A stretch of DNA of 64,000 bases, taken from contig JAJYXB010000007.1 in assembly GCA_021791195.1 (NCBI GenBank), positions 124,001 to 188,000 on the forward strand, in the 5' to 3' direction. This document shows, piece after piece, positions 13,986 through 56,636 of the stretch. The first letter of the stretch is position 1. Each line of letters starts with the position of its first letter. The position numbers and the translations under genes were made by a program. The notes under the pieces are model-generated. The model did no database searches. It was not told the DNA's origin and saw nothing but the letters and a program-made list of their open reading frames with translations. Origin of the DNA: Actinomycetes bacterium. GTDB lineage: Bacteria > Actinomycetota > Thermoleophilia > BMS3ABIN01.

Positions 13986-14891
13986 ATGAATATCTACCAG
14001 TATTTAAGCGGCGCGGCCGGTCACATCATCGCCATGACCGACGGAGACACAGGGAAAGAGGAACTCTTTCCCGCCATTCTGGAAGCCTTCAACCTGGCCG
14101 TAGCGATGATCGCTTTCTATTTCGCCATCAGGGTGCTGCCTTCGATCTCAAAGGACGTGCGCAAGCGCTCGTACCTGTTCCTGGTGCTGGCGGCCATCAC
14201 CTTCGCCATCGCCGAGATCATCGGTACGCTCAATGAGCTGGCGAAGATCTCGATCGATGGACTCTACGAGGGCGTGGAGGCTGTTTTCGTGATTCTGTTC
14301 GCGGCCGGCTTCTATTTCATGTTCACCAGCGAGCACAGGGAAGCGCTGAAGTTAAGACGCCAGTCGACGACTGATGACCTCACCAGCCTTTACACCCATG
14401 GATTCTTCCAGACCTACCTGGTAAACAAGGTCAGCAGTCTCAAGAGCGACGGCACCGAACTGACCATCCTGTTTCTCGACATCGACGATTTCAAGGAATA
14501 CAACGACAAATTCGGGCACCAGGAAGGCGACTACGTGCTGCAGAAGGTGGCGCAGACCATCCAGCATGAGGCGCGCGGCGAGGACGTGGCGTCCAGGTAC
14601 GGCGGCGAGGAATTCACGCTCATCCTCGGCTGTAACTTCGAGACCGCCTGCCGGGTAGCCGAACGGCTGCGCTCGAGCATCGAGGAGCGCTGCTCCACGT
14701 TCGCCGATCCCAGCATGCGGCGCAGCGTCACCGTCTCGATCGGTCTGGCCTCTTTCGGCCGGGACTCGGAGCACGCCGACAAGCTGGTGCATATCGCCGA
14801 CGCGCGCATGTACAAAGCCAAGCGCCTGGGGAAGAACCAGGTCTATGCAGGCGAGATCGGCCTGGAAGAAGCCTCGCCGCACGCTGCCTGA
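13986..14891 (+). CDS. Membrane diguanylate cyclase (GGDEF)
   Basis: The 301-residue product has three hydrophobic segments in the first 115 residues and a GGDEF domain (about 135-290) with the active-site motif RYGGEEF. An RxxD inhibitory (I) site, RGED, sits exactly five residues before GGEEF, so product feedback inhibition is expected. It makes c-di-GMP from two GTP, opposite in effect to the HD-GYP protein encoded just upstream. The ATG follows AGGGGGG at an ideal distance. Confidence 0.93.
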   Translation: MNIYQYLSGAAGHIIAMTDGDTGKEELFPAILEAFNLAVAMIAFYFAIRVLPSISKDVRKRSYLFLVLAAITFAIAEIIGTLNELAKISIDGLYEGVEAVFVILFAAGFYFMFTSEHREALKLRRQSTTDDLTSLYTHGFFQTYLVNKVSSLKSDGTELTILFLDIDDFKEYNDKFGHQEGDYVLQKVAQTIQHEARGEDVASRYGGEEFTLILGCNFETACRVAERLRSSIEERCSTFADPSMRRSVTVSIGLASFGRDSEHADKLVHIADARMYKAKRLGKNQVYAGEIGLEEASPHAA

Positions 14892-15000
14892 CGCCCTGGA
14901 GAGCCGGTACAGCCAAATATTCCGGCATCGGTTCAGCAGCACCGGCTGGCTGCCGATGAAGATTGTAGACCGGATTAATGCCACTTCCCCGTGCTGACAA

Positions 15001-15699
15001 ATGATACTCTGGGGTAAGATAAGCCACTTCTCCGTCTTCATGGTGCTCCAGCTCCTGGCCAGCTACAACAAGACCGGCCAGCTGGAGATTGAAGATAATG
15101 AAGAACGGGCCACTATCTACCTGATGGATGGTTTCGTCGAGGCCGTATCGGTCCCGCGTTCCGATCATCTGCTCGGCGCCAAGCTGGTAAAAGCGGGGCA
15201 CCTGTCCCAGACCGACCTGCGCAAGGTCATACTCGCTTCAGCGCTCAGGGATGACAAACGCGAGTTTCTGGGCCTGACCCTGATGAAGAGCGGCATGGTC
15301 GAACCGGAGATAATCGCCGGGACGATTACCGAGCAGGCTTACGAAAACACGCTTGAGCTTTCCAACTGGGTCGAAGGCACGTTCAAATTCACTTCGCCGC
15401 GTCAACCGGTGGTATTTCCTTTCCCTCCCCGGATCAACGTGCAGCACCTGCTGCTGGAGACGAGCCGCCGCCTGGATGAGGGGCAGCGCCCGTCCAAGAG
15501 CAAGGCCGTGCTCCCTGGAGACGAACTCTGCCACAGCTGCTCCGCCAACTGCACCGAGGCACAGAAAGACAAGTATCTGAAGGACGGCATCTGCCTCTGG
15601 CGCAACATGCCTGTGATCACCAGGGAAGCAATCTTCGCGCCTGAAAACACCGGTTTCGGCGGTCCGGAAGATATTGCCCTGGACATCCCCTTTCTTTAG
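15001..15699 (+). CDS. DUF4388 (PatA-like) protein with cysteine-rich C-terminus
   Basis: A 232-residue cytoplasmic protein that begins with the DUF4388 pattern (GKISHFSVFMVLQLLASYNKTG, shown here as key residues G5, L16-L18, T24-G25). DUF4388 proteins often occur with response regulators and Ras-like GTPases in gliding, pilus or c-di-GMP signalling, but the biochemical role is unknown. The C-terminal part has a potential metal-binding set CHSCSANC followed by another cysteine in DGICLW. It lies after the HD-GYP and GGDEF genes, which fits a signalling role. No clear ribosome-binding site precedes the ATG. Confidence 0.75.
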   Translation: MILWGKISHFSVFMVLQLLASYNKTGQLEIEDNEERATIYLMDGFVEAVSVPRSDHLLGAKLVKAGHLSQTDLRKVILASALRDDKREFLGLTLMKSGMVEPEIIAGTITEQAYENTLELSNWVEGTFKFTSPRQPVVFPFPPRINVQHLLLETSRRLDEGQRPSKSKAVLPGDELCHSCSANCTEAQKDKYLKDGICLWRNMPVITREAIFAPENTGFGGPEDIALDIPFL

Positions 15700-20742: not shown

Positions 20743-21765
20743 TTAAAAGACTACCTGTGGCTGGAGGCTGAAATCGCGGTAGCGCGCAACGGCGCCGCCC
20801 CCGATCGCCTTTGCCAGGTAGAGCGCCCGGTCGGCTTTGGCCCTCAGGGCACCAACGTCAGCACCATCGGCGGGGCAGCAGACCACGCCGATCGACACGC
20901 CGGTCATCTCGCGGCCACCGGTCCTCAGGTTCAACGCCTGTACGCGGTGCCTGATGCGGGTAGCCAGGCGCTCGGCATCCCCGGTCACCGTGCCCGGCAG
21001 CACCAGGAAAAACTCGTCGCCGCCGTAGCGCACCGCAATGTCGGTTTCCCGCTTCTCCTCACAGATCACCCCTGCCAGATGCCTGAGGGCGCGGTCGCCC
21101 TCCTGATGGCCGCAGGCGTCATTGAGCTGTTTGAGCCGGTCGAGGTCCATCATCAGCAGCGAGAAGGGAATGCGGTAGCGCTTGTAAAGCTCCAGGTTGC
21201 GATGCAGCTGCTGGCGGAAGTAGCGCACATTATAGAGCCCGGTGAGTGGATCGGTGTTGGCCTGATATTGCAACGCCACGGAGTGCTGCTCGATGAATGC
21301 CTCGATTCCGGCGCTCAGCAGCTGATAAAAACCCTCGTCCAGCCGCTGCGCCATTTCCAGCACGGCAATGTCGCTGGCGCGCAGCTCCGCCGCGACAGCA
21401 GCGACGATCTGCCGCTTCAGCGCCGAATAGTCGTCGATGATGTTCGCAACCGAGGGGTCTTCCCGGCGCAATGTGGCCATCTTCGCCGCCAGCGTGCCGG
21501 ACTCGAAGCTGGCGGAAAAATCGGCGGAGGGATCGGTGAGGGACTTGGCGATCTGCGCGATCAGCCCGGGGAGGCAGCTGGCGAACTCCTGTGTGGGGAA
21601 GGACTCCAGTGATGCGAGGCCGAGGCTGTCGATCACCGATTTAAACCACTCCCTGACTACCTGCGTCTGGCGCCGCCTGAGAGATTCGCTTGCCTTGAAG
21701 GCCACGATGGCGCTGCCGTTGGCAGTCACGCCGCCGCCATGCCCATTTATCGGGTTTCGGGCCAT
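20743..21765 (-). CDS. Soluble diguanylate cyclase (GGDEF) with N-terminal helical sensor
   Basis: A 340-residue cytoplasmic protein. The N-terminal 165 residues are helical and resemble globin-like or RsbR-type sensor domains, but are not clearly assigned. The C-terminal GGDEF domain begins at DPLTGLYNVRYF and contains the active RYGGDEF. An RxxD I-site (RETD) lies five residues before GGDEF, so feedback control is likely. No membrane segments. It ends next to fpg (convergent) and is followed upstream on the same strand by a hypothetical protein and the c-di-GMP riboswitch-controlled gene, which makes this a local c-di-GMP locus. Confidence 0.92.
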   Translation of the reverse strand: MARNPINGHGGGVTANGSAIVAFKASESLRRRQTQVVREWFKSVIDSLGLASLESFPTQEFASCLPGLIAQIAKSLTDPSADFSASFESGTLAAKMATLRREDPSVANIIDDYSALKRQIVAAVAAELRASDIAVLEMAQRLDEGFYQLLSAGIEAFIEQHSVALQYQANTDPLTGLYNVRYFRQQLHRNLELYKRYRIPFSLLMMDLDRLKQLNDACGHQEGDRALRHLAGVICEEKRETDIAVRYGGDEFFLVLPGTVTGDAERLATRIRHRVQALNLRTGGREMTGVSIGVVCCPADGADVGALRAKADRALYLAKAIGGGAVARYRDFSLQPQVVF

Positions 21766-21794: not shown

Positions 21795-22400
21795 CTAAAG
21801 AGTCCTTTTAAACAGAGCCGCCATACCCTCGTGCATGCTGCCGTGGCCGCCGTTTCCACCCGGATTTTCGCCGGCTGTATCGCCAGCGGCCGGCGGACGC
21901 AGAGCAGGCTCCATCGCCGCAGCCGGCTGACGGCGCAGCTCGCCGGCGATCGCATCGAGCCTTACCCTGGCTTCGCGCCTGAGGCTGAGGGCAATATCCA
22001 TGATCGACTCCACAGTCTGCAGCGTCTCCAGCCTCGCTCTTAATATATTTTTTTCCAGCCGGGCATAGTCTCCTGCCAACTGCTCGGTCATTTCCAGCAT
22101 GCGCCCGGCCATCCCCGCCAGGGAAGCATCCACCAGCTCCGCAAACTGCGACAACTCCTGCTGCGCATCCGGTGCGGTGGACAGGAGGCTGGTATCCGCT
22201 GCCCCGGATTCATGGCCACGGCGCGTTTGCGGAGGGATGGATGGGGGGAGGGCTTCCCTCCGCTCCCAATGTTCACGATCTGCTCCTGATGAAAATTCAG
22301 CGCGGTCGCTGTGCTCCGGGAAAGAACCTGCACGCAACCGGGGTTCGGACTGGTACCTGAGTTCGGCGATGCGACGATCGACCAATTCCTGTAGATCCAT
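21795..22400 (-). CDS. Hypothetical protein with coiled-coil segment
   Basis: I do not recognise this 201-residue protein. It starts MDLQELVDRRIAELRYQ after AGGAGG, so an upstream in-frame extension is rejected. A low-complexity polar region (about 25-75) is followed by a long amphipathic helix or coiled coil (about 80-165) and a Gly/Pro-rich tail. No membrane segment or catalytic motif is seen. It sits 29 bases upstream of the soluble GGDEF gene on the same strand and is probably co-transcribed with it, so a partner or localisation role for that cyclase is possible but unproven. Confidence 0.6.
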   Translation of the reverse strand: MDLQELVDRRIAELRYQSEPRLRAGSFPEHSDRAEFSSGADREHWERREALPPSIPPQTRRGHESGAADTSLLSTAPDAQQELSQFAELVDASLAGMAGRMLEMTEQLAGDYARLEKNILRARLETLQTVESIMDIALSLRREARVRLDAIAGELRRQPAAAMEPALRPPAAGDTAGENPGGNGGHGSMHEGMAALFKRTL

Positions 22401-22575
22401 GGGCCTCCTGTCATGAGGTAGCGGCTTGACTGCTTTCCTGGACCCAAAACGCAGCAAAGCCCAGGTGCTAGCCTGATTGCCATTACGTATGCGCAGGGTC
22501 TTGCGAGGAGCGGCCTGCCAGGGGTTGCTGCCGGGGCCGCATGATCTTTTTCTACATGGTCGCGTTGGTTTCCTT

Positions 22576-22644
22576 CAAAAAGACTACGGCGGCCTTGCGT
22601 CCCATCCCGACTTGCCGGGATTCGGACAGGAACGCAACGCCGCC
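22576..22644 (-). terminator. Long hairpin with T-tract downstream of the riboswitch-controlled gene
   Basis: On the minus strand GGCGGC (22644-22639) pairs with GCCGCC (22593-22588), extended inward by TTGCG/CGCAA and ATCCCG/CGGGAT. TCTTTTT follows four bases after the stem. It would end the transcript of the secreted-protein gene. The loop side contains GGGACGCAA, which resembles but is not a second c-di-GMP riboswitch. Confidence 0.5.
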
Positions 22645-22674
22645 GCGGTCAAACTCTATCCCCGGAACGATGAA

Positions 22675-23076
22675 TCAGAGCACCGTTACGGTGATGACGA
22701 CCTCACTGTAAGCAGGGACTGAACCGGCATCACGGACGGCACCGCCGGCTGCTGCAATGGCTTGCCCCGCCGGGAGTCCGACTTCACCGCCGCCTGCGCC
22801 CTCATGGCCAAGCAGCTGATTGCCCTCCGGTGTCGGCGATGCCGTCCGTGTTATTAGCTGAGTGATGATTTGCGCCCCCGGAGTCCCGCCCTGGTTGCTG
22901 AGGGCGTCCTTGCCGAAATTCACGCGGAGGGCGTCCCTGACGGTGACACCGACCCTGGTGGTGCTGGCCGCGGATTCGGCCAGAACTGCGGAGGGAATAA
23001 AACAAGCGCAAGCAAAAGCGGCTAAAAACAGTGCCGTGACGCTCTTCACACGCTTTTTTTTTGCTGTTTTGTCCAT
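22675..23076 (-). CDS. Small secreted protein controlled by a c-di-GMP riboswitch
   Basis: A 133-residue protein of unknown family. It has a basic N-terminus and signal peptide (about residues 1-33, cleavage near VLAES) and a mature part of about 100 residues that is Gly/Ala/Thr-rich and cysteine-free, ending in a beta-like SEVVITVTVL. ATG at 23076 (MDKTAKKKR) follows GCAGGAAC and is preferred over the one at 23100. A class I c-di-GMP aptamer and a terminator lie directly upstream. A surface or extracellular role switched by c-di-GMP is therefore likely; the molecular function is unknown. Confidence 0.7.
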   Translation of the reverse strand: MDKTAKKKRVKSVTALFLAAFACACFIPSAVLAESAASTTRVGVTVRDALRVNFGKDALSNQGGTPGAQIITQLITRTASPTPEGNQLLGHEGAGGGEVGLPAGQAIAAAGGAVRDAGSVPAYSEVVITVTVL

Positions 23077-23100
23077 TGTTCCTGCCAGTCCAATGGACAA
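23069..23100 (-). repeat. 10-bp perfect inverted repeat spanning the start of the secreted-protein gene
   Basis: TTGTCCATTG and CAATGGACAA (23069-23078 and 23091-23100) are perfect complements around 12 bases. In the mRNA the start codon would sit in the stem and the ribosome-binding site GGCAGGAA in the loop, so translation could be controlled in addition to the upstream riboswitch. Confidence 0.5.
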
Positions 23101-23146
23101 ACCGCGTCGCCGCTTCGCTTGCGCTTGGCTACCCGGCGAAGGCGCT

Positions 23147-23186
23147 AAAAAAGCTCAGCTACCCCGCCAGTCGGAGCAGATGAGCT
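23147..23186 (-). terminator. Intrinsic terminator forming the riboswitch expression platform
   Basis: Minus strand: AGCTCA (23186-23181) pairs with TGAGCT (23157-23152), extended inward by CTGCTCC with GGGGTAG, loop of seven, then six T residues. It lies between the c-di-GMP aptamer and the coding start. The GCTGCT just after the aptamer could pair with AGCAGC in the 5' arm to form an antiterminator. Confidence 0.8.
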
Positions 23187-23240
23187 GCTTGCGCAGAACA
23201 TGTCTCGGCGCTCGAATTGAAGAGCAGCCTATCAAGCTTC

Positions 23241-23306
23241 GGCGGCCGGGCTGTCTCCCTCAGGGAGACCCCTAGCTTTGCGCCCCCACCTCGCGATGGG
23301 TTTGCC
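23241..23306 (-). promoter_or_regulatory. Class I c-di-GMP (GEMM-I) riboswitch aptamer
   Basis: Read on the minus strand from 23306, the RNA contains GGCAAACC, then hairpin CCCATC-GCGA-GGTGGG with a GNRA tetraloop, then GGCGCAAAGCTA (consensus GACGCAAAGCyA), then hairpin GTCTCCC-TGA-GGGAGAC, then AGCCCGGCCGCC (consensus AGCCrGGuuRCC). This order and the two paired elements match the c-di-GMP-I family. The ligand-contacting position equivalent to G20 is G, which favours c-di-GMP over cGAMP. A terminator downstream provides the switch. It controls the small secreted protein gene at 22675-23076. Confidence 0.88.
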
Positions 23307-23379
23307 TTTTCGTTCTTACATCCTCAATATCGGTCCCGCTTTGACACAGCTTAAATAATTTCCTTTTTTCCCGAGCTAA

Positions 23380-24831
23380 ATGAGCGTTATAATGGAGGCT
23401 ATCAAAAGTGCCTTTCGCGCGGTTTGGGACCACCTGAAAATGAGCAGAGCAACGACGATACAGCACAAAAGCGGCGGCAAGACTACCGCCAGGCGAAAGA
23501 CGATCATGATTGCCGGCGCGGCGGTGGTAGCGCTGCTGGTCCTTTCCTACATATCCATGGCATCGGTCTTTCCCGCAGGGATCAAGGTAAGTCCGGCCGA
23601 CGGGAGCCAGGACGTTTCCCTCGACCAGCAGATCTCGGTTTCCACCAGCTGGATGCGCGGGCACATCAATAGCGTCAGCGTTAAACAGTCTTCACTCAAT
23701 CCCTCCGGAGCTTCCGTCGGCGACAAGACCATCAACGGACACCTGGGCGGCGGCATATTCGTCACGGACAACGGGCCCCTCAAGCTGGAGCAGGATTCAA
23801 AATATGCCGTGACCGTCGACGCCGATCTGACTGAATTCTCGCTGACCGGCCCGCATCACCGCGAGGTGACGCAGACCTTTACTTTTCAAACGATCACCAC
23901 CCCGGCGCCGATTTTTTCCCAGGACACGCAGATAGTGCCGATGGGGCAGCCGATCACCGTGGACTTCAACACGCCCATCCAGTCCTTCAATTATCAGCTG
24001 AGCCCGAACGTGCAGTCTTCGTCCAGCATCGACAGCTCCAATCCCACCAGGGCCTATATCACGCTGGCCAATTACCAGCAGGGGCAGAAGTTCGACCTGA
24101 CGATCACCGCGGCCACCGGAAAAGACGGCGTGCAGATGAGCCAGCCATACACGCAGAAGATTTCTACAACCGAGCCGCTCAAGGTCAAGTTCGTCCCGGG
24201 AGACGGTGAGGCCGGCGCCAGCGTCTACGAGGAGCCAACGCTGACCTTCACGGAGAACATCAAGAATCAGGGGGACGCCGACAAGCTGCTCTCGATCGAT
24301 CCCGCGACGCCGGGTTCATGGGACTGGGCCGCGCCCAACAAGGTGGCGTTCAAGCCCGCCCGGAACTGGAGCAACGGCGAGAAAGTGACGATCCACCTGA
24401 AGGGCGGTCAGGACGCCTTCCGCGGCGATAGCGGCAGCTTCCTGCGCGAGGACGTCAGCAGCACCTTCACGGTCATCCCGGAAAAAGTAATCGAGGTAAA
24501 CCTATCACAGCAGCGCGTATACGCTTATGACAACAACCATCTGGTCAGAACCCTGATCTGTTCCAGCGGCTCGCAGGCGACGCCCAGTCTCACAGGCACG
24601 TACGCCGTTTACGCCAAATCACCGGCGGTCGACATGAGCGGCCCCGGTTATCACGCTCCACACGTCCCCTGGGTGCTCATGTTCAACGGGGACTACACCA
24701 TCCACGGCAATTACTGGGCGACCAGGTTCGGCGTGCCCACCAGCCATGGATGCGTCGGCCTGCCGGTACCCGACGCCCAGTGGCTCTACAGCTGGACGCC
24801 GCTGGGCACCATCATCAAGATCCACTACTGA
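23380..24831 (+). CDS. Membrane-anchored L,D-transpeptidase (YkuD) with Ig-like domains
   Basis: A 483-residue cell-wall cross-linking enzyme: cytoplasmic N-terminus, one membrane anchor (about 42-65), three Ig-like/Big_5-type domains (about 68-360) and a C-terminal YkuD domain (about 370-483) with HGNYW and the catalytic cysteine in SHGCVGLP. L,D-transpeptidases join stem peptides in 3-3 links. The usual SHGCxR arginine is a glycine here, unusual for the family. It is divergent from the riboswitch-controlled gene. The 5' ATG at 23380 is taken as start; later in-frame ATGs (for example MSRATTIQ) would still keep the anchor. Confidence 0.88.
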   Translation: MSVIMEAIKSAFRAVWDHLKMSRATTIQHKSGGKTTARRKTIMIAGAAVVALLVLSYISMASVFPAGIKVSPADGSQDVSLDQQISVSTSWMRGHINSVSVKQSSLNPSGASVGDKTINGHLGGGIFVTDNGPLKLEQDSKYAVTVDADLTEFSLTGPHHREVTQTFTFQTITTPAPIFSQDTQIVPMGQPITVDFNTPIQSFNYQLSPNVQSSSSIDSSNPTRAYITLANYQQGQKFDLTITAATGKDGVQMSQPYTQKISTTEPLKVKFVPGDGEAGASVYEEPTLTFTENIKNQGDADKLLSIDPATPGSWDWAAPNKVAFKPARNWSNGEKVTIHLKGGQDAFRGDSGSFLREDVSSTFTVIPEKVIEVNLSQQRVYAYDNNHLVRTLICSSGSQATPSLTGTYAVYAKSPAVDMSGPGYHAPHVPWVLMFNGDYTIHGNYWATRFGVPTSHGCVGLPVPDAQWLYSWTPLGTIIKIHY

Positions 24832-54872: not shown

Positions 54873-55586
54873 TTAACCGGTGGTGAAGCTTCTCAGTTCC
54901 TTAATCAGCAGAAGATGTTTCAGATGGGACGACACCGTCGCCAGATTCTCCAGCGCCGCGACCCCCTCCTGCCGCGCGGCGGGATTCTTCGATTTCAGCG
55001 TCGGGGAAAGCACTTGCAACAACAAAGCTGATTCTCGGTCAACGGAACTCTTCAGCGTCCGCAGGTTCCTCGCCCCCACTCCGTATCTGGCCAGGTCAGA
55101 TGCGGCGGCCATTACCTCCACATCGGTCTGATCGAAATGCTTGACGCCGCCACTGGAACTGCCCGAGATCAGGCCATACTCCTCCAGCTCACGCACCAGA
55201 TCTTCGCCGGCGCCGGAGGTCTCCAGCGCCTCTTCAAGCGTGTAGATGCGCGTCTCCGCCTTCGGCGTCTTGAGGCTGATCTTCTTGAAGCGGCCAGTAG
55301 ACGCCGGTCTGACGGCGACGGTGCCCTTGCGCGACAGTTCCTGGCGGATAACCTTCAGCGGCAGGAATTCGTCGCGCTGCAGCGTGAGGATGGTGCGCAG
55401 CCGTTCCACGTCGGCCTTGGAGAAGATGCGGTAGCCGCCCGCCGTCCGTTTGGGCAGGATCAGCTTCTCATCCTCGAGGTAGCGGATCTTGCTGATGCTG
55501 ACGTCGGTGAATTCAGACTTCAGTTGCTTGACTACGGCGCCGATAGTCAGTGTCTTGCGCTCGCCCCCACTCTCCTGGCGGCTCAT
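54873..55586 (-). CDS. ftsR: MerR-type regulator, FtsR-like
   Basis: A 237-residue MerR-family protein: TIGAVVKQLKSEFTDVSISK, IRYLEDEKLILPKRTAGGYR and the rest of the winged helix, followed by a second, longer effector half. It follows the FHA gene with a 4-base overlap, the same order as garA-Rv1828 in mycobacteria and odhI-ftsR in corynebacteria, where FtsR activates ftsZ. The assignment rests on both sequence pattern and gene order. Confidence 0.85.
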   Translation of the reverse strand: MSRQESGGERKTLTIGAVVKQLKSEFTDVSISKIRYLEDEKLILPKRTAGGYRIFSKADVERLRTILTLQRDEFLPLKVIRQELSRKGTVAVRPASTGRFKKISLKTPKAETRIYTLEEALETSGAGEDLVRELEEYGLISGSSSGGVKHFDQTDVEVMAAASDLARYGVGARNLRTLKSSVDRESALLLQVLSPTLKSKNPAARQEGVAALENLATVSSHLKHLLLIKELRSFTTG

Positions 55587-56050
55587 CGCTCAATGAATGT
55601 CAGTTTGTACTTTCCGATCTGAACCTGATCGCCATCGGAAAGCTTCTGGGTCTCGACGCGAACGTGATTGACGTAGGTGCCGTTGAGACTCCCCTGGTCC
55701 TGGATGAAGTAGGCATCATCACGGTGGATCAGCAACGCGTGGTTGCGGGAGACGGTAATATCGTCGAGAAAGATGTCACTGCTGGGGTGACGGCCGATGG
55801 TGGTCTTCTCGGTTTCCGGCCTGAACGATTCACCTGTCATATCCCCGCCGCTGCGCACGACCAGCGACACGCCCTCTCCGGCTATCTCGTGGATGGCTGT
55901 ATCCGGCTCCCGCTCTTCAGCGTCGGGTGAGAAGCGGACAGTGGTTTCCGCGCCGGTATCGCCCTCCTCCAGAAGGGCGCCGCATTTGCTGCAGTATTTG
56001 CTTTCTCTCGGGCTTTGATGGCCGCATTCCTGACAATAGACCCTGGTCAC
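55583..56050 (-). CDS. garA: GarA/OdhI-like FHA protein with N-terminal zinc ribbon
   Basis: A 155-residue phosphopeptide-binding protein. The C-terminal FHA domain (about 65-150) has TTIGRHPSSDIFLDD, VSRNHA and GSLNGTYVNH. Ahead of it is ETTVRF, resembling the ETTS/ETTV site phosphorylated by PknB/PknG in GarA/OdhI, which then folds back on the FHA domain and controls oxoglutarate metabolism. Unlike those proteins it begins with a zinc ribbon (CQECG, CSKCG). Overlaps ftsR by four bases. Confidence 0.88.
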   Translation of the reverse strand: MTRVYCQECGHQSPRESKYCSKCGALLEEGDTGAETTVRFSPDAEEREPDTAIHEIAGEGVSLVVRSGGDMTGESFRPETEKTTIGRHPSSDIFLDDITVSRNHALLIHRDDAYFIQDQGSLNGTYVNHVRVETQKLSDGDQVQIGKYKLTFIER

Positions 56051-56366: not shown

Positions 56367-56636
56367 CTATTTGTCGCCGGGTGATCCCCCCATGGGAAAC
56401 GGTTCCCGCCGGGATAGAATCTCGCTCAGCATCGACACGTCGTCGTTGGTGATCAGAGACTCTCCCTTCCCCCTCTTCTTTGACAGCCGCTGCACCAGCT
56501 CAGCCCGCAAAATATCGATCTTTCCGTGCAGGATACGCCTCTGAAAACTCAGCTCCTGCTCTTTGGCTGCGAGCTCGCGGATCATCGTCTTCAGATCCTG
56601 ATCGGTCATGCTCGACAGTTCTGGCAGATTCTCCAA
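56367..56636 (-). CDS. RsiG-like small helical protein with c-di-GMP-binding motif
   Basis: An 89-residue protein that is almost entirely one helical hairpin (about 10-55). It has E26, S30, R33, H37 and D41 in the spacing E(X)3S(X)2R(X)3[H]X3D, matching the c-di-GMP motif E(X)3S(X)2R(X)3Q(X)3D of the Streptomyces anti-sigma factor RsiG except for His in place of Gln. Single-motif homologues are known to act as homodimers in deep actinobacteria. It is therefore a candidate c-di-GMP-responsive anti-sigma factor, though no WhiG-type sigma gene is adjacent. TTG start at 56636 after GGAGGT. First gene of the garA-ftsR operon. Confidence 0.72.
   Translation of the reverse strand: MENLPELSSMTDQDLKTMIRELAAKEQELSFQRRILHGKIDILRAELVQRLSKKRGKGESLITNDDVSMLSEILSRREPFPMGGSPGDK

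Follow-up and report, generated by a model that had tools for sequence, protein, structure and literature searches.

RsiG, the anti-sigma factor of the flagellar-type sigma factor WhiG, needs c-di-GMP to hold WhiG in Rubrobacter and Streptomyces. For Rubrobacter, in which RsiG together with c-di-GMP holds WhiG, control of type IV pili and of c-di-GMP turnover genes has been reported, and the flagellar/WhiG promoter consensus was given as TAAA at −35, about 15 nt and GCCGATAA at −10 (PMC8325347); riboswitches are mentioned nowhere in that paper (0 occurrences). Class I c-di-GMP riboswitches can be made to accept other ligands, as a G20A mutant binds cGAMP and a G20A/C92U mutant binds c-di-AMP (PMC7288161). 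The locus described here, on a 64-kb stretch of DNA (the window), carries a WhiG-type promoter motif stacked on such a riboswitch, in a genome that encodes both WhiG and RsiG. This combination is new, with the limit that our coverage of the literature, in which no work joining c-di-GMP riboswitches with WhiG promoters was found, was partial and does not prove novelty. We consider it probable that the locus gives rise to a WhiG-started and probably monocistronic mRNA with a c-di-GMP-I riboswitch at its 5′ end, coding for a small exported protein.

A search of the whole window with the Rfam models returned one match at gathering level, a class I c-di-GMP aptamer at positions 23237–23315 on the minus strand. 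It scored 63.9 bits against RF03167 (c-di-GMP-I-GGC; gathering score 59, E-value 8.9e-13 in 64 kb) and 65.2 bits against RF01051 (gathering score 35), while zero matches to these two models were obtained in 14 control genomes. The original prediction, made from the letters of the DNA, had named the motifs of a class I aptamer and proposed a covariance-model search; every named motif was found, and the score of that search is significant and far above chance. The aptamer is in the place foreseen but reaches to 23315, about 9 nt past the predicted edge at 23306. The nucleotides which we take to determine specificity, G20, A47 and C92 in Vc2 numbering, are all of the c-di-GMP-binding type. Since G20 and C92 are present, and since the exchanges G20A and G20A/C92U switch the ligand, c-di-GMP is the predicted ligand of this RNA. 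RF03167 was the best family in cmscan, and on this ground the aptamer could be taken for a c-di-GMP-I-GGC variant, maybe differing from normal c-di-GMP-I in its ligand or ligand affinity. We regard this as highly improbable, given the c-di-GMP-type G20 and C92 and the slightly higher bit score of RF01051. Moreover, the RF03167 consensus has a G at position 47 (CGCGAA), presumably the position to which "GGC" in the family name refers, where the aligned window RNA reads CGCAAA. A47 speaks against a true member of the variant family, and the aptamer was therefore filed as an ordinary c-di-GMP-I aptamer.

As is typical of RF01051, the aptamer is placed in the 5′ leader ahead of a conserved gene, which encodes a protein of 133 amino acids (22675–23076, minus strand). 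A search of 60 genomes for this protein found relatives in 11, including its own genome, almost all of them from the same taxonomic family, and an aptamer search of the same 60 genomes placed a c-di-GMP-I aptamer approximately 140–165 nt upstream of nearly every small-protein start codon; the loci of G006 and G008 were added from the aptamer side. Eleven orthologous loci, in 10 genomes of the same family, have kept aptamer, leader, start-codon hairpin and small protein alike, and hardly any position of the aptamer varies among the 12 loci of the alignment. When the conserved sequence of the aptamer was sought in 84,980 species, 10 stretches were returned, 9 of which have the small gene (records titled Thermoleophilia, Gaiellales, Actinomycetes, Bacterium BMS3Abin01 and uncultured bacterium). 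The tenth, from a record titled Chloroflexi, has a different gene downstream: on this contig (L110:3296–3336, minus strand) the same aptamer core is followed by an EAL-type reading frame. The retention of the riboswitch–protein pair across genera speaks for a genuine regulatory connection. Both the riboswitch and its target are real and conserved, the riboswitch class as such being already known.

Of 200 shuffled sequences, 199 fold less well than the entire leader (z = −3.1). Between aptamer and terminator lies a hairpin, here called hairpin A (23207–23229, minus strand; GGCTGCTC...GAGCGCC), in which three of five pairs show changes on both sides among the 12 loci. The strong intrinsic terminator that had been predicted is present at 23147–23186 (minus strand); it reads AGCTCA-T-CTGCTCC...GGGGTAG-C-TGAGCT followed by TTTTTT, is supported by folding, and its stem is kept with compensatory changes across the 12 loci. 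The predicted antiterminator fared less clearly. By inspection of the sequence, a candidate pairing of GATAGGCTGCT (23233–23223) with AGCAGCTCATC (23189–23179) was found on the minus strand, whose 5′ strand coincides with the 5′ arm of hairpin A and which is incompatible both with hairpin A and with the terminator. Equilibrium folding of the small-protein leaders, however, revealed no consistent switch direction, and at the window locus it neither favoured nor excluded the antiterminator.

Downstream of the terminator, the leader alignment shows a conserved block, GCCAAGCGCAAGC..GCGACGCGG (23102–23140, minus strand). No known RNA family matched this block or an intergenic element when both were searched, and a search for the block as a free-standing element elsewhere (model R1) gave convincing matches only at small-protein loci. 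The block is followed by a hairpin around the start codon, TTTGTCCATTG / CAATGGACAAA (23068–23101, minus strand), with the Shine-Dalgarno sequence AGGAA (23083–23079) in its loop and the ATG in its 3′ arm. Besides folding, covariation speaks for this hairpin: 91% of cells are paired in the 12 loci compared with a mean of 85% in shuffles, none of 5000 shuffles reached 91%, and four pairs show both-side changes; because related sequences inflate such tests, we read this as support and not as proof. The start-codon hairpin had been missed by the original prediction and is among the new elements of the locus. Its covariation in all loci, together with the erosion of the terminator U-run in G009 and G012 and its interruption in G008, would fit control that is mainly translational, exerted through the start-codon hairpin and the leader block, with a terminator that is secondary or decaying. 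The covarying terminator stem and the T-run retained in most loci speak against such a division of labour, which we consider unlikely, and a terminator in regulatory use is still preferred.

The 133-residue protein begins with a signal-peptide-like segment (judged by eye), as had been predicted, and the statement that it belongs to no known family held in Pfam, NCBIfam and PDB, none of which gave a match. A single-sequence scan of genome contigs retrieved no relative, and the profile of the family is too variable for scanning. The homologues diverge fast, with 22–64% identity to the window protein, and what they retain is the signal-peptide-like segment, a strand-like V-x-V-T-V stretch and a C-terminal T-x-x-x-L. 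An AlphaFold2 model was uninformative (pLDDT 45), and comparison of the small-protein profile with WxL-like proteins gave a probability of 58% over 31 columns, which is suggestive only. The small protein is a new, lineage-specific one.

Downstream of the small gene, two further genes follow on the minus strand. The first encodes a coiled-coil-like protein of 201 amino acids (MDLQ..., 21795–22400), which has no Pfam family and is syntenic in nearly all orthologous loci. The second, also a syntenic neighbour, encodes a diguanylate cyclase with RsbRD_N-like and GGDEF domains, as assigned by domain matches (20743–21765); it and a gene at 13986–14891 on the plus strand are the nearby GGDEF genes of the original prediction. 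The plus-strand region 13986–15699 codes for a membrane GGDEF protein and then a DUF4388 protein, and a divergent gene at 23380 encodes an L,D-transpeptidase that carries Ig-like domains. One might suppose that small protein, MDLQ protein and cyclase form a three-gene unit under the riboswitch, which would put a diguanylate cyclase under direct feedback by c-di-GMP. The co-directional order of the genes, syntenic across genomes, and the gap of about 30 bp between the MDLQ and GGDEF genes are in line with this idea. Behind the small gene, however, a GC-rich hairpin is followed by TTTTT (22576–22645, minus strand), a probable terminator of which the G004 orthologue has a similar version. A conserved promoter-like element, AAGGAAA-N-TGTAGAAA (22530–22575, minus strand), itself followed by a conserved hairpin, precedes the MDLQ and GGDEF genes and possibly serves another alternative sigma factor. 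The three-gene unit is therefore rather improbable, and from the hairpin and T-run we conclude that the small gene is probably monocistronic.

Directly ahead of the aptamer, the original prediction had missed an element that resembles a σ28/WhiG-type promoter (23327–23353, minus strand). It consists of a −35 TAAG (23353–23350), a spacer of 15 nt and a −10 ACCGATAT (23334–23327), and is close to the consensus, the window having TAAG in place of TAAA. When the upstream DNA was aligned, TMAA-N15-YCGATA, which is the flagellar/WhiG consensus, was found in the same register ahead of each of the 12 orthologous aptamers. Eight of the 12 small-protein loci match the strict and 12 the relaxed motif, where dinucleotide shuffles lead one to expect 0.14 and 0.68, respectively, and in the strictly matching loci the motif lies 9–12 nt before the aptamer. 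The strict motif occurs within 80 nt upstream in 20 of 61 aptamers (0.17 expected). The counts for the small-protein loci apply to 125 nt of upstream DNA, and over this distance the strict motif was present at 9 of 12 WxL-like loci (11 of 12 in relaxed form) and at all seven GH26 loci (7 of 7 in either form). In its own genome, a pattern search for TMAAD-N14/15-NYCGATAW yielded 14 sites compared with 3 in the reversed control, and this genome encodes a FliA/WhiG sigma factor (TIGR02479, 272 bits, cut-off 189.6). These data lead us to infer that the element is a WhiG-type promoter.

A gene for RsiG, likewise overlooked at first, lies in the same window (56367–56636, minus strand). Its product is of the single-motif type, scores 63.3 bits against PF22802 (cut-off 27) and matches the solved RsiG structures 7lq2–7lq4 and 6pfj. 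A search for the exact RsiG motif pattern gave nothing convincing in this genome, because the glutamine of the c-di-GMP-binding motif E(X)3S(X)2R(X)3Q(X)3D is replaced by histidine, so that the window protein reads E(X)3S(X)2R(X)3H(X)3D. The exchange is common to the own genome, the members of the same family that were read out and two genomes of another family. G020, a relative from the same class, has an RsiG with the canonical motif which also matches the solved structures. With this protein as query, 36 of 40 genomes were matched at an E-value of 0.1, including the window gene. The neighbours of rsiG are genes for a zinc-ribbon/FHA protein (55583–56050) and a MerR-like regulator (54873–55586); an FHA-looking gene adjoins RsiG in G020 too, as does, by eye, a DUF4388-looking frame (L143). 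As the motif glutamine is exchanged for histidine, the window RsiG can be regarded only as a candidate for c-di-GMP binding.

The changed motif residue is one of two points in favour of an ordinary c-di-GMP-I riboswitch that is transcribed by another sigma factor, the CGATA motif being coincidental or belonging to a different regulator, with no double control. The other is that such a riboswitch needs no WhiG: none of 14 pilin aptamers has a strict match within 125 nt upstream, and the short-leader aptamers mostly lack one as well. Against this stand the occurrence of the motif in register at every small-protein aptamer and at all GH26 aptamers, far above shuffles, and the fact that genomes with the motif have RsiG and WhiG, the latter tested in the own genome. 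A WhiG-free origin of the transcript thus appears doubtful, and we continue with the WhiG-type promoter.

The other three aptamers of this genome precede genes for a type IV pilin (PF07963), for a WxL-like protein, behind which a 506-aa exported-looking protein is encoded, and for a 610-aa glycosidase-like protein that weakly resembles GH99 and GH71. Relatives have an additional target, a protein with a GH26 domain (PF02156). The label WxL-like is based on sequence features, Pfam offering no family support. By association with these pilin, WxL-like and glycosidase targets, it is plausible that the small protein is a surface factor. When pairing of the aptamer with the rest of the RNA was forbidden, the terminator probability in several pilin leaders rose, for instance from 0.00 to 0.97, 0.03 to 0.97 and 0.32 to 0.93, and in many others it was near 1 either way. 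In these models, the pilin leaders are consistent with OFF switches. The pilin aptamers at G000:C14:44970–45067 (L052) and at the pilin loci of relatives have another promoter-like sequence, TGTCTA..GTTGGGTAGCAT, and their terminator is able to pair through its 5′ arm with the P1 3′ strand. In L065, L075, L077, L086 and L101, a conserved stretch is bordered by a pair of divergently oriented c-di-GMP-I aptamers, separated by about 10 kb; a gene for a GH26-type protein lies in front of one of them, and a gene for a WxL-like protein in front of the other. Weak, altered GEMM-like aptamers with the core GGCGACC were seen at L090:2616–2693 (G013:C2; 42.5 bits) and G018:C2:14089–14166 (40.7 bits), ahead of a gene for a small, secreted-looking protein that contains EPAEAV repeats; they are possibly a variant with another ligand.

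In the mechanism that we propose, transcription would start at the WhiG-type promoter, with WhiG restrained by RsiG. If RsiG needs c-di-GMP for this as in Rubrobacter and Streptomyces, fewer transcripts should already be initiated when c-di-GMP is high. The growing transcript would then bind c-di-GMP and choose between terminator and read-through, in whichever direction, and the start-codon hairpin would add a translational gate. From the arrangement of the elements we infer two points of control by c-di-GMP, the first at initiation and the second at elongation or translation. The encoded protein probably has its role at the cell envelope, within a c-di-GMP regulon to which pilin, secreted glycosidases and WxL-like surface proteins also belong. 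That c-di-GMP is sensed twice in series on one gene, by RsiG at the WhiG promoter and then by the riboswitch, throughout the lineage and at several surface-protein genes, is a broader claim, to which we give an even chance. If true, the GEMM riboswitch and the RsiG–WhiG switch, known separately as c-di-GMP sensors, would be joined in one regulatory path, and a c-di-GMP surface regulon of pilins, WxL-like proteins, glycosidases and a new small exported protein would be outlined for uncultured Actinobacteria. Threshold setting for a second messenger would then become testable with purified parts.

Compared with RF01051 (GEMM-I) riboswitches, the window RNA has the same core, GNRA tetraloop hairpin, specificity nucleotides and position in a 5′ leader with a terminator, and it differs in the WhiG-type promoter directly ahead, in the conserved leader block and start-codon hairpin behind, and in an unnamed target protein. 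With RF03167 it shares its best cmscan score, but not the consensus G at position 47. It resembles the RsiG–WhiG system of Rubrobacter in having WhiG, a single-motif RsiG, flagellar-type promoters and surface genes in the regulon, whereas promoter and riboswitch are stacked here and RsiG carries the Q→H exchange. Tandem riboswitch logic gates also place two sensing steps on one transcript; in the arrangement proposed here, a protein sensor, the anti-sigma factor, and an RNA sensor would respond to the same ligand.
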